A stretch of 64,000 nucleotides of DNA from Actinostola sp. cb2023 (Eukaryota; Cnidaria; Anthozoa; Actiniaria; Actinostolidae), in contig JAUJYZ010001516.1 of NCBI GenBank assembly GCA_033675265.1, positions 62,001-126,000 on the forward strand, written 5' to 3'. Shown piece by piece: positions 18,478 through 49,796 of the stretch. The notes beneath the pieces were generated by a model. That model was given only the letters and a program-made list of their open reading frames with translations. It was not told where the DNA came from and ran no database searches. The number at the start of each line of letters is the position of its first letter. Position 1 is the first letter of the stretch. The position numbers and the translations under genes were made by a program.

Positions 18478-19450
18478 ATTTGCGAATTCGTTATTGAAGT
18501 GAGCTAAAAGTAAGCATAATTTTGAATTTGAATCAATGAAAAAAAATTGTTTTCAATTCCATGTCACATCTCCCGCTGAGTATATTTGTAGCCATGCAAA
18601 GCCAGAGGAATGCTTAGCTAATGCTTGCATCGACGTGAAGATAGAACGGTTTATAAACTCCTATAATTCCAACACTTTAAAGGTAAACATGAGCTAAAGA
18701 CAATTCCTACGAACCTTTTCAGACCAGAGAATCATTTCTGTTCGAGAACTCTTCAAAGCTTTAAGGCGAAGGCGACATAATTATTCGCGCCGAAGTTCAA
18801 AAGACATAAACGCCTTCAACAAAATCTATTCAGTCATACTTGTATTGTCTTGGACGTGATACCAGCTGAACGTGGATTAAGCCATCGTTTTGGCTGCTTT
18901 TATCGAAGAATACGAACTTCTGCAGAGCAAATCCTGAACGTACTTGCAAAACTTGATGACGGGTCTGGGCTCTGATTGGATGTCTTAAAATAGGCTTAAA
19001 TGACGTCAACCGATGTGGCCAATCGCATGCACAGGGGATATTTCTGGGAATTGTTCTGGTTTGTTTTATTAATTTTTTATTTAAGAGAAAAAAAAGACTT
19101 TGTATTTGATACTTATTTTATATTTTAGCTAATCACATGCACAGGGGATTTTTCGGGAATATTTCTTATGCTCTACTTATTTTATAAATCTTTAGCAAAT
19201 TTGATGAAGTTTTAGGCATTAACCAAAATTAGTTCACAGAAAACTGATTCGATTCGCTATTCCTAATTATTTCTCTATAATAATAATATAATTATTAATA
19301 TAATAGTAATATTTAGTACAAATACTGACTGCACAGCTAAATTCATTTGCCATTTAGTAGTGCAATGAACAAAAAGGTAATGGATCAGGGCATAACAACA
19401 AATGACTATAAAATCAACAATGCAACTCAAACTTTTGAATTAATTAATTA
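18478..19450. repeat. Element A, copy 2
   Basis: It matches copy 1 of element A with several indels, for example loss of GAAGTACA near 18580 and a changed segment at 18755-18800 that is shared with the copy at 60610. Confidence 0.75.
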
Positions 19451-23308: not shown

Positions 23309-26300
23309 TTAGAAATCAATGGTGACATCCTCGCCCATTAGAAAGAACGGCGCCCAGTACTTGGGTTGGTTGTACTCCTCTTTTCCTCTCATGTGCTCCA
23401 TCGCCAATTGAAGACTCAAAGTTGCACTTTTCTTTTCTCTGAGATTTAAATAGAACTGTAACATGAACTCACGAGTAGCATCGTCATCGATGGACCAAAG
23501 AGATGCTACCACTGCACGAGCTCCAGCCGCTAGAAAGGCACGACACATGCCAACTACTCCTTCTGCTCGGATTTCACCACGCCCACTCTGACAGCAGCTT
23601 AGCACGACTAACTTAGCACGCACTTGTGAGTTCTGGACGTCATCCATGGTTAGAACATAATCTTCTTCGTCGGGGATCTTTGTTGCTCTTACTTCGGGAG
23701 AAGGAGCCAGCAAGATGGTAGCTTTTTGAACGTCTCCGTGCGCAGCGATATGAACAACTGAGACTCCTTGGTGCAGCTTTTCCAAGACAGCAGCTTTGGT
23801 CGCCTTCTCTCTTGAGAACAGTTCAACATGAAACAGAGTAGAAATTCCCAACGCCTCAATGTATGCCATAATCAGGGGCTTAAACTCTCTTTCCTGACCA
23901 TCATACATTACTTTACCAACCAATGGATCTCCAATAATCAATGAGCCTCTCTTACAGTAAAAATCTGCTGGTCGATCATTCAAGATCTTCAGGGTAGAAA
24001 TTGAAGGGGCAATCCTGATACGTTTCATTTCCGACAAATAGCGTCCCGTCTCTGGGTCACGCAGAGCTGCAAAGGGTATTTTAAACAAGGGACCATCAGG
24101 TAGAAACACGATTTCTTCTTGTTTAACACGAGGCAGTACGTTGCGCAGCAATTTGCTGTACAAAATTTCCAGTGCATTGTTCAAACTACTCTCATCAACG
24201 TTTTCTGATGGTTGCTTGTTTTCAGGAGATCGAAACTCCAGGCTCCTGGCACCGGTACGATTCAGAAGGATTTCCAGTTTCTCTTCTATGCCAGTGTCTT
24301 CACTCTGTACCTTTTTGTCATCTGTGGTTTCTTCACCAACCTTTAAGCATCGGTTCTCACAAGTAACGTGGCGCACGTTCATTTCAGTGAATGCATTTTC
24401 GACGCACTTTTCCAAGAACTCAGAACAGTTATGAAGAGGTTGCTCAACGACGATCAAATCACTCCCACGCTCCAAAAGAAAGACGAACAAAGAGTTCCTG
24501 TTCTCGCAGGCAAAATACTGTACGATGGTGTACTTGTTGTTGGAGATTAAAGACTCGATTTCAGTGAACTGTATCCGTGATTCTTCGTGTAAGTCTTGCT
24601 TCATTCCATAGTTCATAATCAATTGACTCTTCAGAGCACGTGCACGATAACAGTCTAAATTGACAAAAGCTTCTTTGTATCGCTTGGTCATTAAGAGAAG
24701 AGCTGTTAATCTCTCATAATAACGAATATATTTGTCAACAAATGCAATTTTGAACTTGTCATTTTTACCAAGAAAGTGAAACATCGTTTCAAAACACTTG
24801 ATGGCTTCTCTGATGCAATTTTCAGCAGGTTTTAATGCACCCCGTATAAAGAAAACCTCGCTCATTGCATAACGACATTCAGATTCAAGGAGTTTGTCCT
24901 TTGCTTTCTTTGAGTAGCATAAGATCTCGTGATAAAGCCTTAAAGCGATATTGTGATTTCCTAACAGACAGTTCATCGTTGCTATATCCATTTTTATGCG
25001 GTATTCACTAGTAGATTGTACTTCCACTAGTTTTTCAGCTTGTTCACAAACTGAAAGAGCACGACCGTACTCTCGCTGAGATTCAAACTTTTGTGCATCA
25101 ACACATAGTTCGAATAGTTGTCTACCAGTCTCACTGTTTTTACAACTTTCCCTAATTTGAGACCATTCCATTCCCTTAATACCGACAGTGGAATGTACAT
25201 TGGACAACAAAAACTTAAAGTTCTTCACTAAATCGTTGTCTGCCAATTGTTCGGCAATTTCAAGACCTTCAGTGAGGTATGAGAGAGCTGTGTCATACTG
25301 GCACAAACCATTGTATGCTATTCCTGTGAATAACTGAGCTTTAGCCTCCATCTGTCTATCGTCACTTTCCTTTGCAGCTTCAATGCACTTGTTGGCATAT
25401 TGAATGGCATCATTGTGCAGTTCCAGTTTCATCTTGCTGTCGGCTATTAAAAATAGCGAATTCATAATAAGGTATTTGTCTTCAGTGTCCTGTGCAATAC
25501 TGTTGCACTGCATTCCACAGTTAATAGCTTCTCCAAATCGTTTCAATTCATAAAGTGTATTTCCCATCAGAAGATAAGCTTTCCCCTTATCACACTCTTT
25601 GCAAACTTCTGTTGCTTTCTTGGAATAGAAAAGAGATTTTTCGAATTGCTCTAGTGAGAAATAGGCATCTGCCAGCACCAGTGATACTTTTCCCACAGCA
25701 ATAGCATTGTTAATATTCATTGAAATCTCAAAGCACTTCTCTCCATAAACTATTGCATCATCATACTTATTCAGATGGTTTAATTCTACTGCCAACAAAT
25801 ATAAGGAATTCATTTCTGCAATTCTTGTATTTTGTGGGTCCAATGTTGCTAATTCAATGCAGCTTTTACAACACTTCACAGCCTCTCTGGAATTTCCCAG
25901 TATGTGATATGAACCCCCAAGACGACAGTATAATTCCACCTCAAAATTTCTGTAGCCTGCAGTTTTTGCAGCAACGTCAAGGCACTTGTTGGCATGGAGA
26001 ATTGCATACTCATGCTTTTCAAAGTGTTGATAGACATCTATCAGCATTAAATGTGCTACCATCTCTATATCTTTGTCACCAAGTTCTTCTGCAAGTGTTA
26101 TGCACATTTTACTAGCTTGGACTGCAACAGTGTAATTATTTTGCGATTTGTTGGAATTCAAGTATGAAACAGTGTCAGTATTCTTTACTAACATAATGAT
26201 TTGCTGTGCTGTATAAAAACAGCAATAAATACCAAGTGGTTTGTCACCATAGTAGCTTGCCATTTCTAAGCATTCATTGAACAGACAAAGTAGTTGTTCA

Positions 26301-26419
26301 GGAGACAGTCCTAGCTCAATATGGTGTCCAATAACTACACAGAATGTTATAAATGGCTTGATAACAGCACTGTAGAAAATAGACTGTAGTTGCAATTTGC
26401 AGTCAGTACTAGTGTCCAT
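23309..26419 (-). CDS. TPR-CHAT protein, copy C (1036 aa, intact)
   Basis: A single intronless frame starting MDTSTDCK, with the shared 5' flank directly upstream. TPR repeats span residues ~60-600. A Cys-rich linker (~640-690, with TCENRC) follows, then a CHAT domain (~710-1030) with His894 in HIAAHGD and Cys943 in LSCCQSG. The linker is complete here and in copy D but cut down in copy B. From about residue 240 to the end it is very close to copy D at both DNA and protein level, while the N-terminal quarter is further from D. It is likely a cytosolic regulated protease or adaptor. Substrate and trigger cannot be read from the sequence. Confidence 0.93.
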   Translation of the reverse strand: MDTSTDCKLQLQSIFYSAVIKPFITFCVVIGHHIELGLSPEQLLCLFNECLEMASYYGDKPLGIYCCFYTAQQIIMLVKNTDTVSYLNSNKSQNNYTVAVQASKMCITLAEELGDKDIEMVAHLMLIDVYQHFEKHEYAILHANKCLDVAAKTAGYRNFEVELYCRLGGSYHILGNSREAVKCCKSCIELATLDPQNTRIAEMNSLYLLAVELNHLNKYDDAIVYGEKCFEISMNINNAIAVGKVSLVLADAYFSLEQFEKSLFYSKKATEVCKECDKGKAYLLMGNTLYELKRFGEAINCGMQCNSIAQDTEDKYLIMNSLFLIADSKMKLELHNDAIQYANKCIEAAKESDDRQMEAKAQLFTGIAYNGLCQYDTALSYLTEGLEIAEQLADNDLVKNFKFLLSNVHSTVGIKGMEWSQIRESCKNSETGRQLFELCVDAQKFESQREYGRALSVCEQAEKLVEVQSTSEYRIKMDIATMNCLLGNHNIALRLYHEILCYSKKAKDKLLESECRYAMSEVFFIRGALKPAENCIREAIKCFETMFHFLGKNDKFKIAFVDKYIRYYERLTALLLMTKRYKEAFVNLDCYRARALKSQLIMNYGMKQDLHEESRIQFTEIESLISNNKYTIVQYFACENRNSLFVFLLERGSDLIVVEQPLHNCSEFLEKCVENAFTEMNVRHVTCENRCLKVGEETTDDKKVQSEDTGIEEKLEILLNRTGARSLEFRSPENKQPSENVDESSLNNALEILYSKLLRNVLPRVKQEEIVFLPDGPLFKIPFAALRDPETGRYLSEMKRIRIAPSISTLKILNDRPADFYCKRGSLIIGDPLVGKVMYDGQEREFKPLIMAYIEALGISTLFHVELFSREKATKAAVLEKLHQGVSVVHIAAHGDVQKATILLAPSPEVRATKIPDEEDYVLTMDDVQNSQVRAKLVVLSCCQSGRGEIRAEGVVGMCRAFLAAGARAVVASLWSIDDDATREFMLQFYLNLREKKSATLSLQLAMEHMRGKEEYNQPKYWAPFFLMGEDVTIDF

Positions 26420-26868
26420 TTTGAAACAAATACTATATTCCAGTACAGTACCAGAAATGACTGGTGATATTGTTACTGTTTATCATCCCATCTTGTTCAA
26501 ATACAGTTTCAGCAACTCATTGTTGGTCCAATTGCCAAACATTATTTTGCTGTATTAAGGGAGAGCATTACGAGATTGATGATTTGACCATCCATGGATA
26601 ATAGCTACATGTAATTTGTACAGAATATATGGATGCACAAAGCTTTTGTTGTCATCCTTATATGGTCAACTGCTTCCTAAAATTAATGCCATTCCTCTGT
26701 ATAATTAAAAAGAAAATAGACTGTTAGATATCCAGCTGATGATGATATAATATGAATTGTACTTTTTACATCTATTTTTATATTTTATTTGTATATTAGT
26801 ACTTTATTTAGTTAGTTCTTTATTTATTTAGTTATAATTGTACTGTAATTCTGATTGCAATTAGAATA
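26420..26868 (-). promoter_or_regulatory. Conserved 5' flank of TPR-CHAT copy C
   Basis: Matches the other three flanks. AATTGTACTG occurs once here, so it also serves as an empty site for MITE-1. Confidence 0.5.
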
Positions 26869-29024: not shown

Positions 29025-29570
29025 GGGCGAGTTGTCCTAAATGAAAGTTTGTGAGAAAAAAGATTAAGAAACTTTGCGAATTCGTTATTGAAGTGAGCTA
29101 AAAGTAAGCATAATTTTGAATTTGCAACAATGAAACAAATTTGTTTTCAATTCCATGTTACATCTCCCGCTGAGTAGAAGTACATATTTGTAGCCATGCA
29201 GAGCCAGAGGAATGCTTAGCTAATGCTTGCATCGACGTGAAGATAGAACGGTTTATAAACTCCTATAATTCCAACACTTTAAAGGTAAACATGAGCTAAA
29301 GACAATTCCTACGAACCTTTTCAGACCAGAGAAGCATTTCTGTCCGAGAAAGCGAAGCGAAGGCGACAAAATTCGCGTCGAAGTTGATGACTTTGTGTTG
29401 CTTCGCTCGATCGACAGACCAGAATTTTCCTCCAAAAGACATAAACGCCTTCAACAAAATCTATTCTACTTGTATTGTCTTGGACGTGATGCCAGCTGAA
29501 CGTTGATTATAAGCCATCGTTTTGGTTGTTTTGTCGAAGAACGAACTTCTGCAGAACAAATCCTAAACGA
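29025..29570. repeat. Element A, copy 4, left part (interrupted)
   Basis: It matches other A copies up to CCTAAACGA, where the 14.3-kb transposon begins. The right part resumes at 43847 with AAACGAAGACGG. Copies at 8010-8045 and 44865-44890 are uninterrupted at this point. Confidence 0.85.
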
Positions 29571-30181
29571 TATGAGGGGTGATTACCGCCAAAATGTATA
29601 TTTTGATTATGCAATTCTAAAATGCCATTATGCTCTTCTCGTTTGAAGTTGTAAACTGCCATTATGCAATGAAAGAATCCAACTTTTGATTATGCAATTC
29701 TAAAATGCCATTATGCTCTTCTCGTTTGATATTGTAAACTGCCATTACGCAATGAAAGAATCCAACTTTTGATTATGCAATTCTAAAATGCCATTATGCT
29801 CTTCTCGTAGTCGTTTGATATTGTAAACTGCCATTATGCAATGAAAGAATCCAACTTTTGATTATGCAATTATGGTATTCCCAATTGATATAATAAAATG
29901 CAGTTATGAAGTTATGTACCCAAAAAAAACAAGACTTCGATTAAGCTTATACATTTCTAAAAAGCTGTGTTCATTTTGAATTTGGAGATCCAGTGACTTC
30001 GTCCTGAGTAAAACTTCTTTGGAAAAACCCCTTATTATGATATGCTTACGTCATATACTGCATGACACTCAGATGTGGATATTATGATATGCTTACGTCA
30101 TATACTGCATGACACTCAGATGTGGAAGAGTGGGTGGGAGAGTGGAGTCTGGATCGACTACTCTCAAAATGGCGGACAACG
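29571..30181. repeat. Left terminal inverted repeat (611 bp)
   Basis: It is complementary to 43147-43846. It contains three ~90-bp direct sub-repeats (each with ATTCTAAAATGCCATTATGC and CAATGAAAGAATCCAACTTT), a 46-bp direct duplication upstream of the gene, and the ATG and first four codons (MADN) of the HECT gene. Sub-repeats near transposon ends are often transposase binding sites. Confidence 0.9.
30034..30126 (+). promoter_or_regulatory. Duplicated 46-bp upstream element with CRE/ATF-like sites
   Basis: Two exact 46-bp units (30034-30079, 30081-30126), each containing TTACGTCA (30046-30053, 30093-30100), lie 43 bp before the start codon. TTACGTCA fits a bZIP (CREB/ATF) site. The mirror pair is in the right inverted repeat (about 43202-43294) upstream of the transposase. 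Promoter function is inferred from position and duplication. Confidence 0.5.
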
Positions 30182-33100
30182 CACATGGTAGAGACGATGC
30201 AAAAAAGATAGATCAAGGTATAAGGCTTTTACGTGAGGCGACTGAACTACTTTCTGGAGCAACTAGCAGTACTACTACTACTACTAGTAATAATGTCAAT
30301 TCTACAAGTGCCAATCTTCGCTCCCTCTTTGGGCCATACGAAAATAGACCGGGAAGTAGTCGCAACCGGCCAGCTCCACAAAGCAGAAATCAAGTTGCTG
30401 TGCCACCGAAGAAGAAAGCAAAGGCCGCTCCATACTTGTTTTTTAAACCACGCGAAACCTGGACACACGAGTTTATGTGTCTATGTTACTCCCATCAAGA
30501 AGTTGTTCCTTCGAAAGAGATGAAATATAAACTGCAGATGGCTGGGTTAGGGAAGAAAAAGATATGTCTCTCGAAGGATGCAGGCTCAGTTCAGGTGAAG
30601 ACAAAGCTGGAAGATGTATTCCCCAAACTTGTTGATGGCGGTGGTTTCGAAATAATGCGACGAGGTTTGGCCAATGAATTAGTGCTCATACAACCCCCTC
30701 GTAGTGGTTATTCTGTCCAATTTCTTCGAGATGTTGCTGGCCTTGGACAAGCCATAGCTTTCATCAGGCCAATCCAAAGTAATTTGGATATGACACCAGT
30801 ACAAGGTGAAGAAATCAATGAGGTGAGGGGTGAAGTCTTCCTATATATTCTACAAATACCGTACCGTATTTTCTCGAATAAGCGGATTTTGACTGTAAAT
30901 TAAATTCAGAATAAAGTGGTTCAGCTGTTCATTCAACGTTAAGCTTTAAGCTTTAATATATGCAGTGCGTGTACATGTACAGTATCTGAACTTATTACTC
31001 AGATACTCAAACAATGCTTTTCTAATCAATATAGGGTCAAAGTGCAAGTTCCGCACCGAAAGTAAACTGCGTTGTTTGCCACCAGGAACTTCCAGTGACA
31101 GAAGTCAGACAGCATCGAGAGACTTGTAACAGGTACAACTACTAATTACTGCTTGTGTTTGTGGTGGAAATTTAAACCTGATAATTATGGCATATATTGT
31201 AGTCCTGTAGTCCCCGCGTAATATGTAAATATATATCTCGATTTTTCAACTTTACGACTGCTAAGGACCGCTGGGATTGTAACTGGCTGAAATAAACGCA
31301 GGCTCACTGTGTTTTGTAACGGTAGTACCGATCAGTATCACCGAAAAAAAGAATGATACGTCTTCAGATCCTCAATATAAACACACTGAAAACTACTACG
31401 CAGAAGCTGAATACCAAAATACTGATGTGCAGAACTCAGAAGCTGAAGGAAACATTCCGGCACGAAGAAGAATTTGACGCCAACCACCACTCGAGACTCG
31501 AGGCGAAAGAAAGTCACCTAATTTTCAAAATGGGCCACAGTACACGGACTATACGAAAATTTGTATATCTTAAGGTGCATTTTATGGTTCTTTTCATCCT
31601 TTGTCTTTATCCTATTAGCAGAATATGTAGCATTTTTGTTAAACGTCGAGCGTGGGTCTAATGTCTTACATTTAAATGTCGTCACATGTGTTCTCGTATG
31701 TTTTTCAAAAAGTCCAAGAATACACCAATTGTTTTTCGTAGTGAAAATTAAATGCATCGCAGATGTTCATCAACAATTGTACTTTAGTTTTTGGCTATAT
31801 TTACACTTGCATATTCGATTATCGTAAATCTACTTCACATGAATATCGAAGTCAAACTAATCATGGACGCATGCATGCTAATTTGCCGAGTCACGCAACG
31901 AGTGACCAAACAATGTTTTAGTCACGCTGCGATGCCAAAGGTTTTGAATGAATGAATGAACTTTATTTAAAGAAGGTTAATATAAAAAAACATTTACAAA
32001 ATGCACCAGTTTAGCATAGCTAATCTTCCACTGGGCCTTCTAGGTTAAATAAATAATAATAATCGTAATAATAATATGTGATTAACTAAATAAATAGAAT
32101 ACAAAGTTTTGCACTATTTTCTGAAATAGTTCCCTGATGTAATTCTTTAGCTAAAATATAAGGAGTTTAATTTGTTGTACTCGTTTGTAATCAATCAATG
32201 ATTTTCATATAAGAGATTGAATTAGAATATTGATGAAACCTGACCTTCAATGATGAACAGAAATGTATAAACATGTATTTACAACCAAATGTAATCTAGT
32301 TTTACTTATCAGATTAATTTATAGTTCCCAGTCAGTTTTTAAAGAACGGGGGCAGCTGTAGTGTCAACTATGACTAGTTTATATGTGCATTAGAAGTATA
32401 CAATATTACAACTTAGTGTATCTTGTGTACTTTATTATTATGATCTCCCCTCCATGTTTGGGTATAGGCGTGCCGCTGACAGTTTGAAACCCCAACCCTG
32501 TTTAAGACAAAAAAATCAAAAATACCTACCCTGTCTTGGACAACACCCTCTATTTTAGGACCCTGTTTAGGACAAAATACACACTGTCTTTAACATGTGC
32601 TTTATGTTGACAGATGACCTGCTAAAGATCGGCAAACTTCTCACATCTTGGTTGGCTAAATACCGGTTAAAACCATATTTAACAATGACAATCGTGCATT
32701 ACCATACCCTGACAGACTCACATAAAATTATATACCCTATTCAGTGTTCAGCGGCACATCCCCGTATAGCCCATATACATGTATGGGAGTACCACCCCCC
32801 CCCCCCCCTCCCCCCAGGGACCTCCCCCTGTGCACTATGGTACATGTATACTGTAGTAGTCCTGCATGGCCCAGGTTCTTGATTTTAATGGCATTGTTTT
32901 TAATTTATTTTTAAATATGCAAATCATCTGAATATCATTACAAGTACATAAATACTGCATGCACCCATCTTAGGCCTAGGTCAAACATCAAACCTCACAT
33001 GAGCTGAACCTAATGAGATCAAAGAACACAGCCTTTGTTTTAATCCTGTTTTATTTGCCTTTGGCTCATGTAACAGTAAAGTTTGACCTAGGCCTTAGAG

Positions 33101-36100
33101 TACAAATAAAGTGCAGTTGTTATTAACCCCAATGATGGCAATGCACATAATTATATTCTATTCCCCATTTTTATTTTATATCAATATGGTTGACAGCTCT
33201 GGAAAAGAGGATGTTGTTATCAGTAAAGTGGTTAATAGCTGCTCTGCAGTTGAGGACAGTACCAAATTGTCTACTGTGTCACCTATTGAGGTATCAAATG
33301 TGTTTTTGAACTATTATTACAGTTACATGTAAACAAACTTTTACTGACAAAAAAATGTTTTTGCCAATATATAGGATACTGCAAGTGCCTCTAGTAGTCA
33401 AGACTCTAGTCACGATTCCAAAGTCCAAGGTAATTACTATAGACTCTGTTTTATTGTGTGCTGTCAAATATCTTTATTTTTTGCTGGTATCATCTATTTT
33501 ACTTTTTATTTTAGTATCATTGTGCCATTTTTAGGGAAATTCATTCTCATTCAAAGGTATTTTTGTCAGGGAATGAAGATCTAAGAATGTCAACACCAGC
33601 ATACAGCAGTCCTAGTACTAGTGTTAAAAGCACGAGTTTTGAAGATCTTAAACAAATATTCCCTTTTCATGAGATTGAACACTTAAGGCAAGTTTTGGAT
33701 CGGTCTTATACAATGGATGATGCAGTAGCTGATGTATTGGATGAAGGAATCCTCAGTGTTCCAAGTTTTGAAGGTAAGAGAACAGCCAAATGAGTTTGTT
33801 ATAATAAGTTTTAATCAAGTTTGCTAACTTGCCAAAAAAGTTAATACTAGAACCATGAGCCTTTTGTTGACATTTAATGAATTAAAACAAGAGCTACAGT
33901 AATACCCACTGAGTAAAAAACATGAATTTCAATCAGTGGATTTGATGACGTGAAAATGAAAACAACTTAAATGAATTTCTTGACAATTTTCTCGAACTGG
34001 CCAAAATGGTATTCAATGCCCTACAGTACATGTATGTCTAAATATCAATGTCTATTTTTTTGGTGAAAAATCTCAAAAGAGCAAGTGCAAAATTTGAGAG
34101 GATAATTTCTAAAAATAAATCTAAACAAGCAAACAATGGTGCAACATCAAATGAGATGGTTGGGGGCAGGGCTGGGCTTAATGGATTATTAATCAATTAT
34201 TGAGTGAGCAAATTGGAATTTCAATACTTTTTTACTTCAAACATAGATCTTCTCACACTTAAATGTTTCAGACATGCATATTCAATATCCACAAGCTTTG
34301 ACAATTAAATAAATAAAGTTGGTTATTTCTTTTTCTAGATGAGGTTGTTAAAGATGAAGCTGTTAAATATGCCAGTGATGAAGAAGACTTGGTTCTTCAT
34401 ACTGACAAAAGTAAAGGTATGACAGTCTTTCTTAATTAATAAATATATATTGATTGCACATGATATTGATGCTGTGGTATTATAATAATATTATTATTAA
34501 TCATGTCATTTATCATGTGTTAAAATCCCTGGCCTTATTTCCCCCTTTTTTGAGGCAGTGGGGGAGAATTACAGATCCTAAAAGTTGTGAAATCTTGCAT
34601 TGCCAGTATGTTTGCAATGACACGTCCATGTGTAGACAACTAATCACCCCTCCTACTAGGGTCTTGTTCAAATGTGTTGTTTTTGTGATTACCAACAATT
34701 TTTGTGATTATAAATATAAATACTCTTAGGCCCTCTCCACATGTATGCATTTGCGCATACTTTGGTAAGCGATTCCAGCCATCTGCACATAAACGGTTAT
34801 CGTTTACGAATCATTTTCGCCCATCCACAAGAAAACGATTCTAAAATGAATCAGTCTAGCCAGGGTCACTGTTGTGGAGTGTTGGATACCTACTCAATTA
34901 GAGAGACTGGGGAAGACCTTGTTCCCGGGGGGGTGGGGGGGCACTCCCCTATTTATGCTAATCTATACAGGTATGTGCCGCGGGATAGGGTATGGTTTTT
35001 GAGCTCCTTAGGTCTGGGATAGGGTATCGTTTTTGCACTTTTAGTCTAGGATGGGGTACGTTTTGGTCTGATATACATTTGTAGGGTATGGTTTCCGCAA
35101 TAACACCACTATCAGTTTACATACATGTATCCCTTTAGCACGCTTTCAATCTGGGATAGGGTATACATTTTTAAGCTTTAGTCTGGAATAGGGCATGGAA
35201 AATCAAAATTTTAGGTCTGGGAAAATACCCTTAGTGCCCCTCCCGGGGACCTTGTGAAGTCAGTGTTTTCAAAAGTATTCATTTACACCATCCACACAAG
35301 AACTTGTAAACAGCGTTTTCAAAAGTATCCACTTTGGAAAACATTTTCAAAAGTATGTGTTTACGTGTGGACAGAAGACATACAAAGTATGCATTCCATA
35401 CAACTCATGTGGATGGTGCCTTAAGCCACTGTTACATGTTACTAGCTCAGTAACAGCATTGTATCCATGTTTGTTTTATTGTAGGCATGCCTGCCGAACA
35501 GATTTTCAAAATATTCAAATCCACTGTTGTCGAAAATAATGGACCAACAATGTCTATCACATTAAACCGTTCTAAGAAGCCATTTCGTGAACTTTGTAGA
35601 GTTTACAAAAATGGTTCTGACAAGCTCAAGAGACCCCCAGTAGTGTACTTTATTTCTGAAAGTGGTGACGATGAATTTGAAGAAGAAGCTGCAGACATTG
35701 GTGGGCCATTAAAAGAGTTCCAAACAATTGCCATAGAAACTGTACTCACTTCAACAGATCCACAACTATTTGAAGGAGGTGATGACCATAAAATCCCAGT
35801 CCATTCTCAGCAATTGGTACTCAATGGCTTCTTTAAGATGGTAGGTCAAATTATGGCCCATTCGATGATCCATGGAGAGATCTGGACAGTCGGTCTAGCG
35901 AAGCCAGTGAAGGTTTTCTTGGCATCTGGTTGTTCAGAAAATGCTGCACAAGTGGTGTCAGTAGATGATGTAGCAGATTTGAGTGTCAGAGAGGTTTTGA
36001 AACAAATAACTGCAGCCGATGAGGGCCAAATTGCAATGTTATATTCAGATGAAATGGTTTGTAGCCTGATGGGGGAGAGTGGAGTGAGTGCTGCCTTTCT

Positions 36101-39100
36101 TACTCTAAACAACGCTTCACAAGTTGCATACGAGATCATGGTTTTTCAAGTTGTACATAAAAGAATCAGAGAGTTGGAGGAACTTAGAAAGGGTCTCGAA
36201 GTTCTCAAAGTTGGTCAACTACTGGACAATCATCCAAAAGTAATGTCCTTGGTATTCCCTACAGTGGAGCAGTCGGAAATAGATATCAATGTGCTAAAAG
36301 GAAGAGTGAAAAAATTTCCTATTGCCTTAAATGACAACAACAATGTCAACAATGATTGTGCATTCAAGTTTCTGCTTGACTATTTTGAAGAAGTGTGCAA
36401 GAGAACAGATGGTAAGTATAGAAACTGCATAATATTTGCAACTATCACAATGTGCCAAGAGAATGGAAACAAAAATGGATATAATATTAGTTTCAATAAT
36501 TATCAGACTCATAAATAATACATGAGGAAAACAATAGAAATCACAACTTACTGTGGAGGTTGTATGTAATATATATACGAGTGGCCATGTTGTAAACGAT
36601 TTACAAACTCAAGCAGTATGCAAATTTTATTTTGTGTTTGAGGGTGCGTTCAATTGACCCTATTCCAGAATAGGAATACACGGAATAAATAAAATAATAA
36701 TAATAATAATAAACTTTATTAACGTGTCTTTTAAAATTAGTTAGCTTACATTAACAGTATGCTAATTGGGGACACCTAGTATCTAAAGAAATTGAAATAA
36801 AAGAAAATAATTCAAATATATCACCTAATATATATAATTACATAATGCCAATACTAATAATATCAAATCTAAATTCTAAAATTTGTATTAAAATAATTAT
36901 AAAAAATATATATATTACTAAAAAAAAATTATAATATGTATATATATACAGAATATATTAATTAACTAATTATTACATAAAAAAACAAGCGTGACATGTT
37001 TCTTGTATTAAATCCTTAAGGTCTAATTTCCTTATACAGTCATTTGCAAAAATTCTGGCCGCTACGAGATATCAATATATCAATATATCGGGTGCATTAC
37101 GCCAGCAAAGTTGGTATAAATATTTAGTATAATGTTTATTTTAGTCATACGTTTGTTGTTTGTAAATTTTGCTTTATTTAATAAGTTAGGAAACTAAAAA
37201 TAGTATTATTTAATTACCCATAATGCACCCGATATATTGATATATCGTGGCGGCCAGAATTTTTGCAAATGACTGTATATGTGTTTTGAAAATATTAATA
37301 GTACTAGACTTTCTTATAGTATCACTTAGTTTTGACCATAGAATAGGTCCAAAGTATCTTAGACTATGTTGACTATGTTGACTATGTTGACTATGTATCT
37401 TAGACTATGTTGAAGACGGTGGTCTTCAAGCCTTAACATACTATTTGGATCAACGCCTAGTGAAGGAACCTCCCACTCATACACTTACGCGGCTGGCAGA
37501 GCTTGTTCTAACCCTTAATGCCTTCTCATTCAATGGTCAAATTTATCATCAGACCGGAGGAGTTGCCATGGGTACCAAAATGGGACCGAATTATGCATGT
37601 CTGTACGTGGGCTACTTTGAGGATCAAGTATTTCGTCAATATACCGGATTTGTACCCCAACTATACAGGCGATATATTGACGACGTAATTGGAGCGGCAT
37701 CATGTAACCGAGAGGAGCTGGAAGGGTTTATTGACTTTGTCTCTAACTTTAACCCAGCCCTTCAATTTACGTACACCATAACAGAACGCGAGTTACCATT
37801 TCTTGACATCACCCTACGCATAGACCATGACAGGCTACAAACTTCAGTCTTCTACAAGGAAACAGCCACCCACAACTACCTTCACTACAACTCTTCACAC
37901 CCCAGCCATTGCAAGCGCAGCATTCCATACAGCCAGTTTCTACGCCTCCGCCGACTCTGCTCTGACAACAACGACTTCTTGGCCAGATCTACTGAAATGA
38001 AGACCTTCTTCATACACCGTGGTTACCTGTCCTCATCCTTAGATGATGACCTACGGAAAATCATGTCGATCGATAGACAGGATGCTCTGGTTCCCAGGCA
38101 GTCAGTAAACAACGAAACACAAGAGAGTCCCCCTGGTCCTCACGTACCATCCTTTGACGACCAACATTAAACGTATTCTTTTGGAAAACTTCACCATTTT
38201 ATCCAACGACCCTTTAACCAAGGTGATTTTTGAAAATACACCTGTTGTCGCTTACAGACGCGACCAAAGTCTACGTGATACCCTCGTCCACACAACCGAA
38301 GGTTGCGTCACTTCGCAAGCTGGTTCAAATGCTTGCAGACATCCAAGATGCCACACCTGTGAGTACATAACACCTGATACTGAGGTGCGTGCCCCTAAGA
38401 TGACGTACACCATTCGCGAGAACTTTACGTGTAAGACTGAGAACGTAATATATGTTTTATCATGCTGTCGATGCCCCCAGCTCTACATCGGGGAAACCGG
38501 TAGAACTATAAGAGAACGCTTTGCCGAACATCTCCGCAGTATAAGGAAACAGACTCCCGGTTTTCCCGTTGCAGAGCATTTTAGCTCAGGTGGCCATTCT
38601 ATCAGGGACATTAGAGTGAGGGGACTTAAGCTCTGTCATGGTTCTGCACTGAAGCGTAAACAAACAGAAATGGAGCTTATTTATAAACTGGCAACATTAC
38701 AACCTCGCGGAATGAACATTAATTTTCATTATATATAAATTTTATAGCTTGTACACCCTTTATTCCATTCAATTTCACTGTAATTCCATTCTTGTTAGTC
38801 AGCTCGCGGAGCGCGCGCGCATTCAATTATAATCACGTGTAAACACAACGGTTGATCACACTGATGAAGGGCTATGCCCGAAACGTCTGTAAAAATACAA
38901 TTGACACTTAAAATAATTTTGTTTTACCATTGTTTTATCTAAAAAGTAAGTGTCACGCATCTCAATCAAGAACTTCTAGTTCATTTTCTATATGTTTACC
39001 ATTACAGTGTTAAATCTAGGTATTATGGGGGTCGCACTAAGGGTATTTTTGGGTAGGGTGTGCCACGGGCACCTCAAAACCCTGATCCTATCCCAGACTA

Positions 39101-39744
39101 AAGCTTTAAAATGTATACCCTATCCCAGACTAAAGCATAAAAATGTATACCCTATCCCAGATTGAAAGCGTGCTAAAGGGATATGTAAACTGATTAGTGG
39201 CGTTATTGAACGTACCCCATCCTAGACTAAAAGTGCAAAAACGATACCCTATCCCAGACTTAAGGAGCTCAAAAACCATACCCTATCCTGCGGCACATAC
39301 CCGTATAGCATATATAGGGGAGATCCCCCCCCCCCCCCCCCCCCCCCCCCGCAATATTGGGTTATGCCTTTGGCTTGAGTTTGTACATTTTGTAACTCCT
39401 GATACATCACTGCTTTGAATGCTGTAACACTAGTTAGATAAACACTATTTATTGGAAGACAAATGCAATAGCATTAGACTTACATGCATAAATAATATAA
39501 ATAAATGACTTTATTTGCTTTTATAGGTGTTGGAATTAAGTCTGTATTGTCTTTCATCACTGGCTCACCACTTCTACCAAGAGAAATCACTGTCCATTTC
39601 TTGCCTGCTGACAAAGCTTTACCAGACCCTAATACTTGCTCTAATGCTGTTAAAGTTCCTACCTGTTATACAACATATGATAAGTTTTGTTCAGCATTTG
39701 ATTCAACGATCTCAATCCAGGGCAGGGGATATGGAAGAGCCTAG
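30169..39744 (+). CDS. Transposon-borne UBZ-CUE-HECT E3 ubiquitin ligase-like protein (8 exons, 775 aa)
   Basis: Proposed exons are 30169-30822, 31035-31132, 33197-33290, 33375-33429, 33570-33773, 34339-34416, 35485-36411 and 39527-39744. Every junction is GT-AG, all phases agree and the total is 2328 nt. Residues 230-249 form C-x2-C-x11-H-x3-C, the Rad18/UBZ4 ubiquitin-binding finger pattern. Residues ~322-364 (DLKQIFPF ... MDDAVADVLDEG) look like a CUE domain. Residues ~440-775 form a HECT domain: GGPLKEF and HSMIHG in the N-lobe, catalytic Cys741 in the motif NTCSN, and a short Gly-rich tail. HECT ligases pass ubiquitin from E2 to substrate through this Cys. It resembles G2E3-like proteins. 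ATG and MADN lie in the left inverted repeat. It appears intact despite large insertions in introns 2, 6 and 7. Intron 2 could hide another exon. Confidence 0.82.
31940..32110 (-). mobile_element. 3' tail of a LINE/SINE-like retroelement in HECT intron 2
   Basis: (AATG)n followed by AACTTTATTTAAAGAAGG reads on the minus strand as a poly-A-signal-like AAATAAAG then a CATT microsatellite tail, which is typical of CR1/L2-like 3' ends. No coding sequence remains. Confidence 0.35.
32440..32825. mobile_element. MITE-like repeat with CCCTGTTTAGGAC phrases
   Basis: It begins near GGTATAGGCGTGCCGCTGAC and ends near GCGGCACATCCCCGTATAGC and GGGAGTACC with a C run. The layout resembles the ATAGGGTATGG family at 34923 and 39025 and the copy at 7020. 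Ends are not resolved. Confidence 0.45.
33774..34338. other. HECT intron 5, nothing recognised
   Basis: AT-rich intron sequence with no clear repeat or ORF. Confidence 0.4.
34728..35424. mobile_element. hAT-like MITE in HECT intron 6, itself interrupted
   Basis: Left end TTAGGCCCTCTCCACATG and right end CATGTGGATGGTGCCTTAA are imperfect inverted repeats. Inside are CGTTTTCAAAAGTAT phrases. A second element is inserted at 34923-35247. Confidence 0.6.
34923..35247. mobile_element. Nested 325-bp element with 8-bp target duplication
   Basis: GACCTTGT flanks both sides (34915-34922 and 35248-35255). Ends are TCCCGGGGGG and CCTCCCGGG. The interior repeats GGGATAGGGTAT. An 8-bp duplication suggests hAT. 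An inverted relative lies at 39025-39355. Confidence 0.8.
36690..36760 (-). mobile_element. Retroelement 3' tail (ATA/AAT microsatellite with AAACTTTATT)
   Basis: AATAATAATAATAATAAACTTTATTAACG resembles, on the minus strand, a poly-A signal followed by a trinucleotide tail. The following ~250 bp to 37010 is AT-rich and may be its body. Confidence 0.3.
37037..37275. mobile_element. Mariner-type MITE (239 bp)
   Basis: Ends CAGTCATTTGCAAAAATTCT and complement AGAATTTTTGCAAATGACTG are inverted repeats, continuing through GGCCGC and ATATCAATATATCGGGTGCAT with minor changes. TA flanks both sides (37035-37036, 37276-37277). The CAGT start and TA target are as in Tc1/mariner elements. Confidence 0.85.
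37412..38738 (+). pseudogene. Penelope-like RT/GIY-YIG endonuclease, truncated and frameshifted
   Basis: The first frame (to 38168) has RT motifs GVAMGTKMGPNYACLYVG, YRRYIDDVIG (YIDD active site) and LPFLDITL. N-terminal RT motifs are missing. The second frame (from about 38154 to 38738) has a Cys/His cluster (CRHPRCHTCEY) and the endonuclease signature VIYVLSC ... LYIGETGRTIRERFAEH. In related elements these are one protein. Here the frames overlap by about 15 bp near 38160, so a 1-base shift separates them. Both catalytic cores look otherwise well preserved, suggesting a fairly young insertion. It is not expected to be active. Confidence 0.88.
38855..38892 (+). ncRNA. Candidate hammerhead ribozyme core in Penelope-like 3' region
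   Basis: CTGATGA (38861-38867), a GGGC-TAT-GCCC stem II, then GAAAC and GTC follow in the order of the hammerhead core. Stem III would be the self-complementary ACGT, possible only in a dimer. Minimal dimeric hammerheads are known from Penelope-like elements. Stem I is not obvious by eye. Confidence 0.5.
39025..39355. mobile_element. Inverted relative of the 34923 element
   Basis: CCCTATCCCAGACTAAAG phrases are the complement of the GGGATAGGGTAT repeats at 34923-35247, in the same order when reversed. It ends in a C homopolymer of about 24 (39327-39350). It sits 170 bp before the last HECT exon. Confidence 0.7.
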
Positions 39745-40139
39745 CTCAAATATTATAGATTTTCATACAGATTGAAAATTACAGATTGAGTACTTTATGA
39801 TGTTCGAGTTTCTGATCATTAACTGTTGCTGTTTTTATTTTATATGACAAGTTTTATTCATTGGTACAGTTCAATTAATATTTTAAGTGTGTACTTTATT
39901 ATTGTAGGTTCAGGAACCATCCCTATGAAAGACATTGTTCATGCAATAGAGAATATTGTTCGATTGAGTCACCAAAAACCTTAATTCCTGAGATGTGTGT
40001 CAATTTGAAAACATTGAACCACAGATCATTATTATTTGATGATCTTTACAGTTAGAAATAGTAACCGTAAACCTCATGAAAGTGATTATACAGAATATGA
40101 ACCAAGGTCACTTTTATGGTACTGGGTCACTGCAACTAC

Positions 40140-40340
40140 TATATAATAAAATAGTTATTATAAAAATACCAAAAATATGCCATTATTACTGTACATCAGA
40201 ACATTGGTTTTTAAAGGCAAATATATTGTTTTACTATTACTGTTATTAAAAAAGCAAATACCAAAATATGCCATTACATCAGATCAGAACACTGGTTTTT
40301 AAAGGCAATATTGTTTTACTGTAACTGGTTTATTTTACTA
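40140..40340. repeat. Tandem duplication, two ~95-bp units
   Basis: CAAAAATATGCCATTA, CATCAGAACA, GGTTTTTAAAGGCAA and TTGTTTTACT occur twice in order. This lies between the two convergent transposon genes (39745-40357), a region otherwise without features. Confidence 0.75.
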
Positions 40341-40357
40341 TTAAACATTTTGAGATT

Positions 40358-43159
40358 TCAGTTGTGTTGTTCCTCTGGTCTGTCAGCAAGTTTCCCAGTC
40401 AAAAAAGCTAATGTTTCCAAATATAGATCAACACCTTGGAATTCAGACTGGTCTAAGGGGTGTACTCTCAAAGAAAGCTCTCTGGAATCTTCTGTTGTTA
40501 ATTGATAAAAGGGTAATGTTTCTGGTACTTGTACTTCCTGCTGTACATCATTCCAAGATCGAGTTGTAGGTTCTTCATAATCAATGCCATAATCATTGAC
40601 ATCTTCAGGAACCTTAAACCAATAAAAATAATACAATACAATACAATAACTTTTATTTAAACACGATAATAGGCGACTTGCATGATGACGTTGTTTTACT
40701 ACAAGTACCAGAATGCTTTGGGAATTTTCTTTCTTATTCATATGTTTATTCCCTCATGAGAATAGTAAGACAATAATTATTGGTGCTAATTATCTAACAA
40801 AAGAAAATGGGCAAAGCATTCTGGTACTTGTAGTATATGACGCCATCATGCAAGTTGCCTATTATGAGTAATAATGATTCAGACAGACATTTCCCCCTTA
40901 AAAATGTATGAATAAATATCACCAACTTGTAAATGCCTCGGGGTAAATGTTTGTTAATGATGGCACAGTACAATTGAATCATGAATGCATATATAGCCAA
41001 TCTCATTACATTGTCCAGAAAAATACATTTTTATAGTCTATTGCACATTTCACATGTCTCATTAATTAACTATTACCGGTAAGTTGTTTATCCACATTTT
41101 ATGTTTTCTGGCTAAAATACAAAACGCAATTCTTACTCAAACATCATACCTTACCGGTATTTCTAATATTAGAGAAAAGATTGCTTGAATTCATCTGTTT
41201 ACTCATTTCAGATTGCTTGATGTGAACGGTTTTTTTTTACATTCGTAAAATCTATTGATTACATGTAATGTTACACCAACTATATTTACAACCATATGAC
41301 TATATGGCCGTGAAATAGTTATGTTACTAAATAGTACTAAATAGTGTTATCTCTATTGTTTTCTATTGTTTCATCAGTGCTATGTAGTACTAATTAGTTA
41401 GTACTGTTTCACGGACATACGGTTTGCACTCTATAATTACCTGCTCCCTGAATTCTCTTGCTACACGAAACTCTGCATTTCTAACAGCCAACATTCCCCT
41501 TACCCAGAGTTGTTCAGGTGACATATTATGTTCTGTACTAATGGGACCATTGCTATGTCCAGCTTGAAAGGTTTGTAGATGAGAGTTAATTCTAGGGAGG
41601 AAGACATAATGAAGTGCAGCAAGATGAATTTCATTATCTGGGTCTAGGATTCCACTTTCCTCCATGTGATAAAATAAATGGTAAAATATGTAAGTGCATC
41701 CAGTAAATAAATCTCGCCATAAACGTTCTATTCTTTGATTATGGACACTGCGTCCAGCAATGTGACTTCCTCTTCCAGGTCCACGTTGTGGATGATCAAG
41801 CATGTACCGTGCAATATCAATGTTCTCTCCCCCTTTGTCTGACCTTACCCTTGAAGGTAGTCCAAAGTTCTCAATTGCTTCCAGGAACAGGGAAAAAACA
41901 GTAGAAGCCCTATTATTGGTAGAACACTTCAAGAAGACTATCATTCTGGTGAAACCATCAATGCCCCCATGGATGACAAACCTCCATCTGGAAACATGAT
42001 TTTAACAGAAACATCCATTTATCCATTTTATTAAAACACTGAAGAATTAGGTTATATTTTATATTTTTGTAACAAACGAAATTGAAATCATGATTGTATT
42101 TTATAAAAGAAATAGAAAACTTGTCTGCTGTGGTATGTGCAGATTCATAGCACTTGGCGGGGGCGGGGGGGGGGGGGGATTGATCGGAACTCTCGAGAAG
42201 TGTTGAGAAGCACTCCACTACATGTATGTGTCGTGCTTCTCCTAACACTTGTCTCGTGTTCTGATCAGTCCCTGCGTGCTATAAATCTGCACATAGCACC
42301 TGCATGTGCGTTTACTATTTCTTCAGTAAATAGCACTATAGTCTCACTATATCTTATAAGTAAGCTTAATTATTAACCAATGGAGTTCGTCTAGCATAAT
42401 TTAGACTGCTATTTATGATAGATTGATCCCCTGATTAATATGACAGCACCAACCTGACAAGTTTGTGATTTCCATCTATATGCCATAATGCCAAAGGGCT
42501 TTTGACCTGGTAGCGCCTTCTTTGTATTATATTCATCTCTACAGCCCTTAAAACTGTTCCCTCAGGATTCACTCTGCGCATTGCTTCACGAATTCGTAGT
42601 TGCTGTACTCTTAAATTACGAGAAAGCAGGAACCCCGTCATACGTTTGTAACCGGTATTTGGAAACTCCATCAAGATCCCGGAAACTTCTACATCAAGCT
42701 CTTCATTAGTCATCTTAGCGTATGTCCCTCTGATTGACAAGCTGAATTCCTCTAAACGTCTTTCGACGGTCCTCTTACTTACGCCCAAAAGTAAGGCTAT
42801 TTGTGCCGTAGCAAAACCTCTTTCCAACCAGAAATTCCAGTTGCTCTCTAGGTATATTGAATTTTGGTCTGCCGCAAGTACCAGTAAAAACTTTCGATGT
42901 TTGGTATGAATCAGGAGCTTGATATGGCTTAAAAACAATCACATGCCTCTCCTACGATAGTAACGATTCGTTCGTCAATAATTCCTACTTCAACACACCT
43001 CATCATCATCCTGCAAATACTATCAAGTTGATAGTGTATGTAATCAAGGGTGTCAGAATCATTATTGCCTACTTCTATCCGTCTTATAATATTTAACAAC
43101 CAACTGCGAAGATGATTTGTTGTTGCTTCCCTGTTCATCATGTCCACGTTGTCCGCCAT
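40358..43159 (-). pseudogene. IS3EU-like DDE transposase, 3 exons, two frameshifts
   Basis: Exons on minus are 43159-42454, 41987-41441 and 40612-40358, with GT-AG introns in agreeing phase once two single extra bases in exon 1 are discounted (near 42938 in a T5 run, and near 42828 in a GG). That would give ~501 codons. Exon 1 has the MADN start inside the inverted repeat, a helix-turn-helix (TAQIALLLGVSKRTVERRL) and the first catalytic Asp in WHIDGNHK. Exon 2 has the second Asp in RSDKGGEN and the Glu in HNQRIERLW, 36 residues apart, as in retroviral/IS3 integrases. The last exon ends in an acidic, aromatic tail (GVDLYLETLAFL). The frameshifts could be decay, sequencing error in homopolymers, or recoding. 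Confidence 0.85.
40666..40865. mobile_element. 200-bp MITE in transposase intron 2
   Basis: ATAATAGGCGACTTGCATGA at left pairs with TCATGCAAGTTGCCTATTAT at right. ACTACAAGTACCAGAATGCTT also pairs with its complement near 40820. The target duplication is not clear. Confidence 0.75.
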
Positions 43160-43846
43160 TTTGAGAGTAGTCGATCCAGACTCCACTCTCCCACCCACTC
43201 TTCCACATCTGAGTGTCATGCAGTATATGACGTAAGCATATCATAATATCCACATCTGAGTGTCATGCAGTATATGACGTAAGCATATCATAATAAGGGG
43301 TTTTTCCAAAGAAGTTTTACTCAGGACGAAGTCACTGGATCTCCAAATTCAAAATGAACACAGCTTTTTAGAAATGTATAAGCTTAATTGAAGTCTTGTT
43401 TTTTTTGGGTACATAACTTCATAACTGCATTTTATTATATCAATTGGGAATACCATAATTGCATAATCAAAAGTTGGATTCTTTCATTGCATAATGGCAG
43501 TTTACAATATCAAACGACTACGAGAAGAGCATAATGGCATTTTAGAATTGCATAATCAAAAGTTGGATTCTTTCATTGCATAATGGCAGTTTACAATATC
43601 AAACGACTACGAGAAGAGCATAATGGCATTTTAGAATTGCATAATCAAAAGTTGGATTCTTTCATTGCGTAATGGCAGTTTACAATATCAAACGAGAAGA
43701 GCATAATGGCATTTTAGAATTGCATAATCAAAAGTTGGATTCTTTCATTGCATAATGGCAGTTTACAACTTCAAACGAGAAGAGCATAATGGCATTTTAG
43801 AATTGCATAATCAAAATATACATTTTGGCGGTAATCACCCCTCATA
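43147..43846. repeat. Right terminal inverted repeat (700 bp)
   Basis: It is complementary to 29571-30181 but has four instead of three ~90-bp sub-repeats, which accounts for the 89-bp difference. It includes the duplicated 46-bp TTACGTCA-bearing unit and the transposase start codon. Confidence 0.9.
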
Positions 43847-44215
43847 AAACGAAGACGGAAGTGCTAACATGCAAATCTTGATGAGGTCTAAACTGGGCTC
43901 TGATTGGATGTCCTAAAATAGGCTTAAATGACGTCAACCGATGTGGCGAATGACGTGCACAGCCGGATATTTCTGGGAATATTTCTGGTTTGTTTTAATT
44001 TTTTATTGAAGAAAAATATGACTTTGTATTTGATGCTTATTTTATATTTTAGCTATTCACATGCACAGGGGATTTTTCGGGAATTTTTCTTATGCTCTAC
44101 TTATATTATTTTATAAATCTTAGCAAATTTGATGAAGTTTTAGTCATTCACAAAAAATTAGTTCACAGAAAATTCGATCCGCTATCGGCCTAATTATAAA
44201 CTGGTTCCGACGTCA
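43847..44215. repeat. Element A, copy 4, right part
   Basis: It starts with the duplicated AAACGA, continues AGACGGAAGTGCTAAC, and runs to the TTCGATCCGCTAT end, completing the copy begun at 29025. Confidence 0.85.
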
Positions 44216-44334: not shown

Positions 44335-45345
44335 GGAACAAGGGCAAGTTGTCCTCAATGAAAGTTTGTGAGAAAAAAAGATTAAGAAACTTTGCGAATT
44401 CGTTATTGAAGTGAGCTAAAAGTAAGCATAATTTTGAATTTGAAACAATGAAACAAATTTGTTTTCAATTCCATGTTTAATACATCTCCCGCTGAGTGGA
44501 AGTACATATTTGTAGCCATGCAGAGCCAGAGGAATGCTTAGCTAATGCTTGCATCGATGTGAAGATATAACGGTTTATAAACTCCTATAATTCCAACACT
44601 TTAAAGGTAAACATGAGCTAAAGACAATTCCTACGAACCTTTTCAGACCAGAGAAGCATTTCTGTCCGAGAATTCTTACTGAAATTCGCACCGAAGTTGA
44701 TGACTTTGTGTTGCCTCTGCTCGATCGACAGACCAGAATTTTCCTCCAAAAGACATAAACGCCTTCAACATCTATTCTACTTGTATTGTCTTGGACGTGA
44801 TGCCAGCTGAACGTTGATTATAAGCCATCGTTTTGGTTGTTTTGTCGAAGAACGAACTTCTGCAGAACAAATCCTAAACGATGACGGAAGTGCTAACATG
44901 CAAATCTTGATGGGGTCTAAACTGGGCTCTGATTGGATGTCCTAAAATAGGCTTAAATGACGTCAGCCGATGTGGCCAATCACGTGCACAGGGGATATTT
45001 CTGGGAATTTTTCTGGTTTGTTTTAATTATTTATTGAAGAAAAATATCATGACTTTGTATTTTATATTTTAGCTAATTACATGCACAGGGGATTTTTCGG
45101 GAATATTTCTTCTGTTCTACTTATTTTATAAATCTCAGCAAATTTGATGAAGTTTTAGTCATTCACCAAATTAGTTCCCAGAAAATTCGATTCGCTATTC
45201 CTAATTATTTCTCTATAATTAATATAATAGTAATATTTAGTACAAATACTGACTGCACAGCTAAATTCATTTGCCATTTAGTAGTGGAATGAACCAAAGT
45301 TAGAATGAAATTGGTCAGGGCATATAACAACAAATGACTATAAAA
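44335..45345. repeat. Element A, copy 5
   Basis: A full copy 120 bp after the end of copy 4. At the transposon target it reads CCTAAACGATGACGG without insertion. Confidence 0.78.
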
Positions 45346-47126: not shown

Positions 47127-47524
47127 ACCCCGTATGGGGATCGAGTAAATGAAGGGGGCTTATAACCGGGGGGGGGGGGGGGGGGCTATAACCGGGAGGG
47201 AATTTCTGTTAGCAGACAGGTGGGCTTATAAACCGGGAGGAACTTTCTGTTAGCAGATCGACAGGTGGGATTCTACGGTATGTATAAAGATCAACGAGAC
47301 ACTATTTCACACTCATGAGAACTCCGCTGTACATCGAAACGAAAGACAAGCCAACTTTTATAGACGTGCGAGTTTCACATTTTAAATTACCGTAAATGCT
47401 CGATTTAGCGACCCGGGCGCTTAATTTTTTTTAGACCTCTAGAGGAGGGCGCTTATTCGAGGGGGGCGCTTATTCGAGGGGGGCGCTTACATGGAAGCAG
47501 GGCGCTTATTTATTTTCTCAGATG

Positions 47525-49571: not shown

Positions 49572-49664
49572 CACGTAGGGCACGCGCGCGCTCAAAAATG
49601 CCGGGGTTCGCCATATCTTTTGTACAGCGGTAGACTTCATGAGTGCTGAATTTGAAAAATCAAA

Positions 49665-49796
49665 ATGGCGGCAGGTTTCAACACTGAACAAGGTTTAAAA
49701 TATATTTTTGGGCAGAGTTTTAGCCATGATGATGACATTAGCGAGGAAGGCGATGTAGTAGACGAGGAGGAAGACAGTGAGAGAGAAAAACTGTGA
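49665..49796 (+). CDS. Short acidic ORF or first exon in the 4.16-kb element
   Basis: ATG in AAAATGG context opens 43 codons (MAAGFNTEQGLKYIFGQSFS then an Asp/Glu-rich end) to a TGA. I do not recognise it. The CAAAATGGCGGCAGG start resembles a genuine gene 5' end. It could be a broken exon. Confidence 0.25.
   Translation: MAAGFNTEQGLKYIFGQSFSHDDDISEEGDVVDEEEDSEREKL

Follow-up and report, generated by a model that had tools for sequence, protein, structure and literature searches.

The closest described relatives of the element reported here are the IS3EU transposons, which combine an integrase-like DDE transposase with TA..TA ends and, usually, 6-bp target-site duplications (TSDs) (PMC10045372). 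Fungal IS3EU families are described as carrying TET/JBP dioxygenase and alpha-kinase genes, the latter opposite in orientation to the transposase, and the TET/JBP enzyme has been proposed as an aid in escaping methylation-based silencing (PMC12730594). These elements are among the known transposons whose additional enzymes have been proposed to work against control by the host. The element described here lies in a 64,000-nucleotide stretch of DNA from Actinostola sp. cb2023 (the window) and shares with the elements of PMC10045372 the type of transposase, the termini and the length of the TSD, and with the fungal elements a second enzyme gene oriented against the transposase. It differs in that its host is a cnidarian and the predicted enzyme is a HECT ubiquitin ligase rather than a kinase or a dioxygenase; neither ‘HECT’ nor ‘ubiquitin’ occurs in the main text of PMC10045372 or in that of PMC12730594. 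No publication on the pairing of HECT with an IS3EU transposase was found among the matches listed, judged by titles and the openings of abstracts, with Repbase reports outside this scope. We consider both the anatomy of the element and the lineage-wide pairing of the two genes to be very likely.

The transposon is 14,276 bp in length and occupies positions 29571-43846 of the window. It is flanked by an identical 6-bp duplication, AAACGA, at 29565-29570 and 43847-43852, and its termini, TATGAGGGG.. from 29571 and ..CCCCTCATA up to 43846, are of the TA..TA form. The left terminal inverted repeat (TIR) of 611 bp (29571-30181, plus strand) contains subterminal tandem units of 83-89 bp and a 47-bp tandem repeat, and differs from the right TIR of 700 bp (43147-43846, minus strand) by one substitution and by one extra 89-bp tandem unit in the latter. 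The terminal 20 bp occurs twice in the window when up to three mismatches are allowed, where shuffled sequences give an expectation of 0. Empty sites were also found: once the two flanks are joined, five paralogues within the window match them through the junction, at 44493-45208 (91%), 20033-20728 (87%), 7665-8352 (86%), 18582-19270 (81%) and 60741-61411 (78%). The borders proposed in the first-pass annotation are thus confirmed by the perfect TSD, the inverted repeats and the empty sites, together with the further genome copies discussed below, and this is a real DNA transposon.

The transposase gene is encoded on the minus strand. Exon 1 (42943-43159) has an uncertain donor, several in-frame alternatives existing for the exon 1/2 junction; exon 2 (42454-42868) encodes a helix-turn-helix and the first catalytic Asp, exon 3 (41441-41987) the rva_4 core with the second Asp and the Glu, and exon 4 (40358-40612) ends with the stop codon. 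The match to rva_4 (Pfam PF24764) has an E-value of 1.6e-83, in agreement with the earlier call of a DDE integrase-like transposase. In an alignment of 17 rows every sequence has the second Asp and the Glu; at the position of the first Asp one row (P0093) has Asn, and two rows begin after it. Judged by its rva_4 core, TA..TA termini and 6-bp TSD, the element is of the IS3EU/GingerRoot type. By analogy with its family, the transposase would bind the repeated units of the TIRs and insert the element via 6-bp staggered cuts, 6-bp duplications being what is observed.

The HECT gene is encoded on the plus strand, convergent with the transposase. Its eight exons, which had been proposed to splice in phase to 775 codons, were reproduced here in that frame, the splice sites of both genes being derived from open reading frames and homologues and not from RNA. 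Exon 1 (30169-30822) encodes an N-terminal helix and a predicted ubiquitin-like beta-grasp domain (approximately residues 92-205), exon 2 (31035-31132) a UBZ4-pattern finger, exon 5 (33570-33773) a weak CUE-like segment, exon 7 (35485-36411) the HECT N-lobe and exon 8 (39527-39744) the C-lobe with the predicted catalytic Cys741 (TGC at 39637-39639) and the stop codon. The remaining exons are exon 3 (33197-33290), with an uncertain acceptor for which there are several in-frame alternatives, exon 4 (33375-33429) and exon 6 (34339-34416). The HECT domain is recognised by Pfam at residues 484-765 (E=2.6e-10; 40.9 bits against a cut-off of 23.9) and the TC at residues 740-741 is identical in a medaka homologue, which bears out the HECT domain and catalytic Cys of the first reading; the 775-residue protein is likely, on these sequence features, to be an active ubiquitin ligase. 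Among PDB sequences the HECT part found SMURF1 alone (E=0.38) and the N-terminal alignment found no match, and a structure model of a full-length homologue was poor (mean pLDDT 53) and not usable. The predicted N-terminal domain is probably ubiquitin-like. Two ubiquitin-binding modules had also been claimed. The first of these is supported, since the finger (C230-x2-C233-x11-H245-x3-C249) keeps the pattern C-x2-C-x11-H-x3-C in five of five aligned members. The second is weaker, as the CUE match of the exon open reading frame is below threshold (13.8 bits against a cut-off of 21.1, E=0.048), no Pfam CUE match is listed at E<=1 for the full 775-residue protein, and a profile of only three sequences has SMARCAD1 CUE1 as its best match (E=0.17); the exon 5 segment is a weak candidate for a CUE domain.

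One other long locus of the same family was found in the genome, C1566, and both the HECT and the transposase gene are present between its TIRs; the C1282 locus represents this insertion a second time, on a different contig. Nine short copies were fetched, all of which have perfect 6-bp duplications and TA..TA termini, one having TACGAGGGG at one end. Seven of the nine keep a piece of HECT exon 1 together with a piece of the transposase, that is, the 5' parts of both genes, which is the pattern that internal-deletion derivatives would give. Copies sharing these ends but consistently lacking HECT would have spoken against a mobile unit with its own ligase; what was found speaks in favour of it.

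Further evidence for the pairing came from other transposon families of this genome. A scored rva_4 transposase match lies within 10 kb of 20 of the 34 other-family HECT loci, whose proteins are 30-49% identical to the window HECT, and 19 of these 20 pairs are convergent, the exception being that on C556. When HECT loci were shifted by 30-300 kb on the same contig in 2000 trials, a mean of 0.6 and a maximum of 4 of the 34 fell near a transposase, although this mean may be somewhat low because shifts could pass contig ends. Removal of five apparent duplicate sets left 14 distinct pairs, 13 of them convergent. In a second family (C1491) the two genes are convergent between inverted repeats of approximately 400 bp ending TATGGAGCGCC; no matching 6-bp TSD was found for this element. 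The occurrence of the same pairing in distantly related transposons suggests that the ligase is inherited in one lineage and is not a chance passenger, and the second long locus, the short copies and the other-family loci give strong support to a HECT ligase as part of the mobile unit. The pairing is not universal. Of the 34 HECT loci, 13 lack a scored transposase within 15 kb, and 127 of the 150 scored transposases are without a HECT exon-1 hit over the same distance, although such absences are not clean because only 150 of 864 candidates were scored; the latter count indicates that HECT marks a lineage and not the superfamily. Among transposases sharing an intron position, seven of 19 lacked a HECT exon-1 hit at this 15-kb range, and for one of these seven (C97) HECT pieces were found by tblastn. 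Eight intron-sharing transposases (L027-L034) were chosen before the HECT map was known, and the 6 kb downstream of each contained HECT-family matches in five cases and no HECT in three (L028, L029 and L033). No HECT was present within approximately 1.5 kb on each side of the eight best-scoring transposase loci (L004-L011).

The explanation that fits best as a whole, and which we consider reasonably probable, is a two-gene IS3EU/GingerRoot-type transposon whose HECT ligase acts as a local module that both reads and writes ubiquitin marks. The second, convergent gene would be an E3 ligase inherited as part of one IS3EU lineage; its UBZ finger, and perhaps the CUE-like segment, may tether it to chromatin or to repair proteins that are ubiquitinated, and the predicted ubiquitin-like domain may help in partner choice or autoregulation. 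The HECT domain would then ubiquitinate a host factor that otherwise silences or restricts the element, although a host-restriction factor as the target is put forward only tentatively. The start codon of the HECT gene lies inside the left TIR and that of the transposase inside the right, and the promoters of the two genes probably lie within the TIRs as well. Since these TIRs are near-identical, the two genes could be co-expressed, and this, with the recurrence of convergent pairs across families, would also fit a ligase that ubiquitinates the element's own transposase and so limits its activity and copy number. Selection on single copies would, however, hardly maintain a self-limiting gene, and such a brake seems rather unlikely.

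Equally doubtful is a role in repair, in which a UBZ-guided ligase at excision or insertion gaps promotes gap repair in the manner of Rad18. The spacing of the finger is typical of Rad18 UBZ4, it is kept in all aligned members, and the finger profile finds the finger of WRNIP1 weakly (E=0.53). The best match among solved structures is nevertheless the FLN29 zinc finger (E=0.0048) and not a repair UBZ.

DNA transposons commonly capture genes, and a captured host HECT gene might simply be carried along without a role. Comparison of the window copy with C1566 across HECT exons 1-6 is consistent with this, as divergence is 0.83% in exons and 0.92% in introns, with one synonymous and eight nonsynonymous changes, so that purifying selection is not visible between these two copies; the many scored transposases without a nearby HECT hit point the same way. 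Against it, the pairing is seen again at 14 separate sites, convergent in almost all of them, with HECT proteins of only 30-49% identity, both gene starts lie within the TIRs, and a distant family (C934, the third) retains the signatures of the finger and of HECT, in that the UBZ pattern is kept, the C-lobe matches HECT with E=2.6e-12 and SC replaces the TC of the window protein at the predicted catalytic Cys. A pure passenger was set aside on these grounds as very improbable. That host HECT genes merely lie near transposases, outside mobile units, might be read from the 13 loci without a scored neighbour, but HECT is enclosed by TIRs in the window element (with a TSD, which refutes this reading there), in C1566/C1282 and in C1491, and its pieces occur in short copies with perfect TSDs, so that we give the idea practically no weight.

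The HECT protein may have relatives beyond this genome. The medaka uncharacterized protein LOC105358285 (P0001; E=1.6e-42, 24% identity, 94% of the query covered) resembles the window protein in having an N-terminal domain, a C2HC finger and HECT, and differs in that no CUE-like segment was identified. Scans of viral contigs with the transposase, with the HECT alignments and with the TIR end yielded no loci, nor did a scan of a genome-contig collection with the HECT alignment. In that collection the transposase alignment found three short contigs from the MAG of a sponge-associated Cycloclasticus symbiont, which are probably host DNA and in which no HECT match was better than E=0.067. By size matching by eye, no contigs were common to the transposase and HECT database matches among those listed (120 of 5754 for the transposase). 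A broader and more speculative proposal is an ancient animal IS3EU clade with a second gene of ubiquitin-like, UBZ, CUE-like and HECT layout, which would bring its own ubiquitin signalling to sites of transposition, recognising marks there and adding new ones to a host factor involved in silencing or repair, with fish proteins of similar layout perhaps being members or domesticated descendants. A ligase that recurs as the second gene of an IS3EU lineage would add ubiquitin signalling to the known accessory functions of transposons. Such a lineage may also explain part of the HECT gene repetition seen in animal genomes, points to some ‘uncharacterized HECT proteins’ of this kind being transposon genes, and offers a testable system for ubiquitin control of transposition.

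The first-pass annotation had further stated that only two genes fill the element, and this did not hold. HECT intron 7 contains a nested Penelope-like retroelement fragment (37376-38990, plus strand, borders approximate) with reverse transcriptase and GIY-YIG open reading frames at 37391-38738; it is missing from the C1566 copy and is not part of the transposon proper. The introns of the element also hold short palindromic repeats.

The pairing of a HECT ligase gene with an IS3EU-type transposase recurs outside the family of the window element. When the Actinostola genome (424,152,321 bases, 1594 contigs) was searched for HECT exon 1, all 85 candidates were scored and 57 matches emerged. These merge to 48 loci, 14 belonging to the element's own family (at least 70% identity) and 34 to others at 30-49%. 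The transposase side of the comparison comprised 150 scored matches, of 864 candidates, to the Pfam profile of the transposase core (rva_4). A scored match lay within 10 kb of 20 of the 34 other-family HECT loci and within 15 kb of 21, with the two genes convergent in 19 and 20 of these pairs respectively, the sole exception being on contig C556. The uniform chance expectation is 0.7% per locus, and a same-contig shift control, somewhat lenient as shifts may overrun contig ends, gave a mean of 0.6 and a maximum of 4 of 34. Five apparent duplicate sets were called by equal or near-equal match rows (C453=C570=C1560; C1491=C636:963616; C1068=C763; C465=C835) or by translations (C934=C630), and collapsing them leaves 14 distinct pairs of the 20.

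Viewed from the transposase, 23 of the 150 have a HECT exon-1 match within 15 kb, counting the window element and the copy on C1566. Such a match was found for 12 of the 19 transposases whose profile match starts at the end of the lineage's intron (profile 18-21) versus 11 of the 131 others, a split which indicates that HECT pairing marks one lineage. Most IS3EU-type transposases of the genome, among the 150 scored of 864, were not seen to carry the pairing. Eight six-kb stretches 3' of intron-sharing transposases were chosen before the HECT map was known; HECT-family matches were present in five (C97, C453, C611, C556 and C630) and none was detected in the other three (C1020, C596 and C1048). 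No HECT was found at the eight best-scoring transposase loci with short flanks, nor did an HMM search of eight six-kb pieces of the window, one overlapping the left terminal inverted repeat (TIR) by 430 bp, return a HECT-family match. In the C1491 family the convergent genes are enclosed by inverted repeats of about 400 bp ending TATGGAGCGCC; no target-site duplication (TSD) is apparent, since the 6-bp flanks, GATGGA and GATTTT, are unlike. In the C934 family the inverted repeats extend to the edges of the examined stretch.

The window transposon itself spans 29571-43846, with termini TATGAGGGG..CCCCTCATA and AAACGA flanking both sides. Its TIRs, of 611 and 700 bp, are alike except for a single substitution and an extra 89-bp tandem unit in the longer one, and this near-identity suggests either that the insertion is young or that the repeats have been homogenised. 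A Penelope-like fragment (RT and GIY-YIG) at about 37376-38990, within HECT intron 7, is missing from the C1566 copy and therefore most likely arrived after the transposon. A short repeat is present in two inverted copies, up to 97% alike, at 34963-35196 (intron 6) and 39087-39308 (intron 7), and a 247-bp palindromic repeat lies at 37033-37279. When joined without the insert, the flanks align to five paralogous stretches of the window at 78-91%; these empty-site paralogues probably exist because the transposon sits in a repeated ORF cluster. Several similar long minus-strand ORFs surround it (14876-17971, 23309-26479 and 56668-59795), and the one scanned, 23309-26479, contains a CHAT domain (E=8.4e-52) and TPR repeats. 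Minisatellite arrays occur at about 9320-10403, 47387-49722, from 51970 and at 62502-63108, with spacings of about 46, 93, 9-15 and 74 bp respectively.

The left TIR gave 56 matches in the genome. One further long locus of the family is present on C1566 and C1282, counted as one because about 23.6 kb align at 94% with the same insertion in both. It retains pieces of all eight HECT exons and the transposase; its HECT gene is decayed, with about 3.2 kb splitting exon 8 and 35 gap positions in exon 7, and there is no readable TSD since the outer 164 bp are missing at one end. C1282 shows many small indels relative to C1566 near 26380-26860 (locus L017), as if poorly polished, and the number of genes counted on contigs of this kind may be inaccurate. 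Nine short two-ended copies were examined (C509, C336, C1576, C634, C888, C1593, C705, C818 and C1425); left out were the two-ended copies on C1377, C297 and C199, as well as the matches on C873, C207, C959 and C1459, which are single or partial. All nine, of 1298-2531 bp, have perfect 6-bp TSDs. Seven hold a HECT exon-1 piece with a transposase piece and two (C888 and C1425) a transposase piece only, so that the short copies appear to have arisen by deletion from a parent element with both genes. The exon-1 search also matches the copies on C1377, C297, C199 and C873.

There is indirect support for a function of the HECT protein. The C934 family has the UBZ4-pattern finger CVNCHQTVPIHNMKDHMDIC and a C-lobe, the part with the predicted catalytic Cys, that matches HECT (E=2.6e-12); finger and HECT signatures are thus kept in a distant family, and exon-1 frames are mostly free of stops (28 of 34 other-family loci have a best match without an internal one). 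The window and C1566 copies differ by 0.83% in HECT exons 1-6, with one synonymous and eight nonsynonymous changes, and by 0.92% in the introns between these exons; this pattern looks like that of dead copies and lends no support for function.

By analogy with its family, the transposase would cut and join with a 6-bp stagger. The ligase would most likely be expressed together with it and most likely ubiquitinate a factor of the host at the element or close to it, our first choice being a silencing or restriction factor; the main rival targets are the transposase itself and a repair factor. A parallel is offered by fungal IS3EU elements in which a TET/JBP gene is placed between transposase and alpha-kinase genes of opposite orientations (PMC12730594). 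Neither the IS3EU superfamily nor the concept of transposons with accessory enzymes is new. The literature searched yielded no account of a HECT ligase that recurs as the second gene; Repbase entries, which might already note such a protein, were outside that search.

Beyond this genome, the HECT protein gave two database matches, one of them to a medaka protein of 755 aa that shows 24% identity at 94% coverage (E=1.6e-42). A HECT alignment gave 24, nearly all unnamed partial ORFs in clusters of 1 to 143 sequences, one being a chytrid HECT protein with a different layout (E=6.8e-4). Relatives of the transposase number in the thousands (of 6893 candidates, 5754 reach E<=1e-20), the best named among the 120 matches listed coming from the corals Oculina, Porites and Acropora. 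In a MAG of a Cycloclasticus sponge symbiont, three contigs (L001-L003) that are probably host contamination also carry transposase genes of eukaryotic type.
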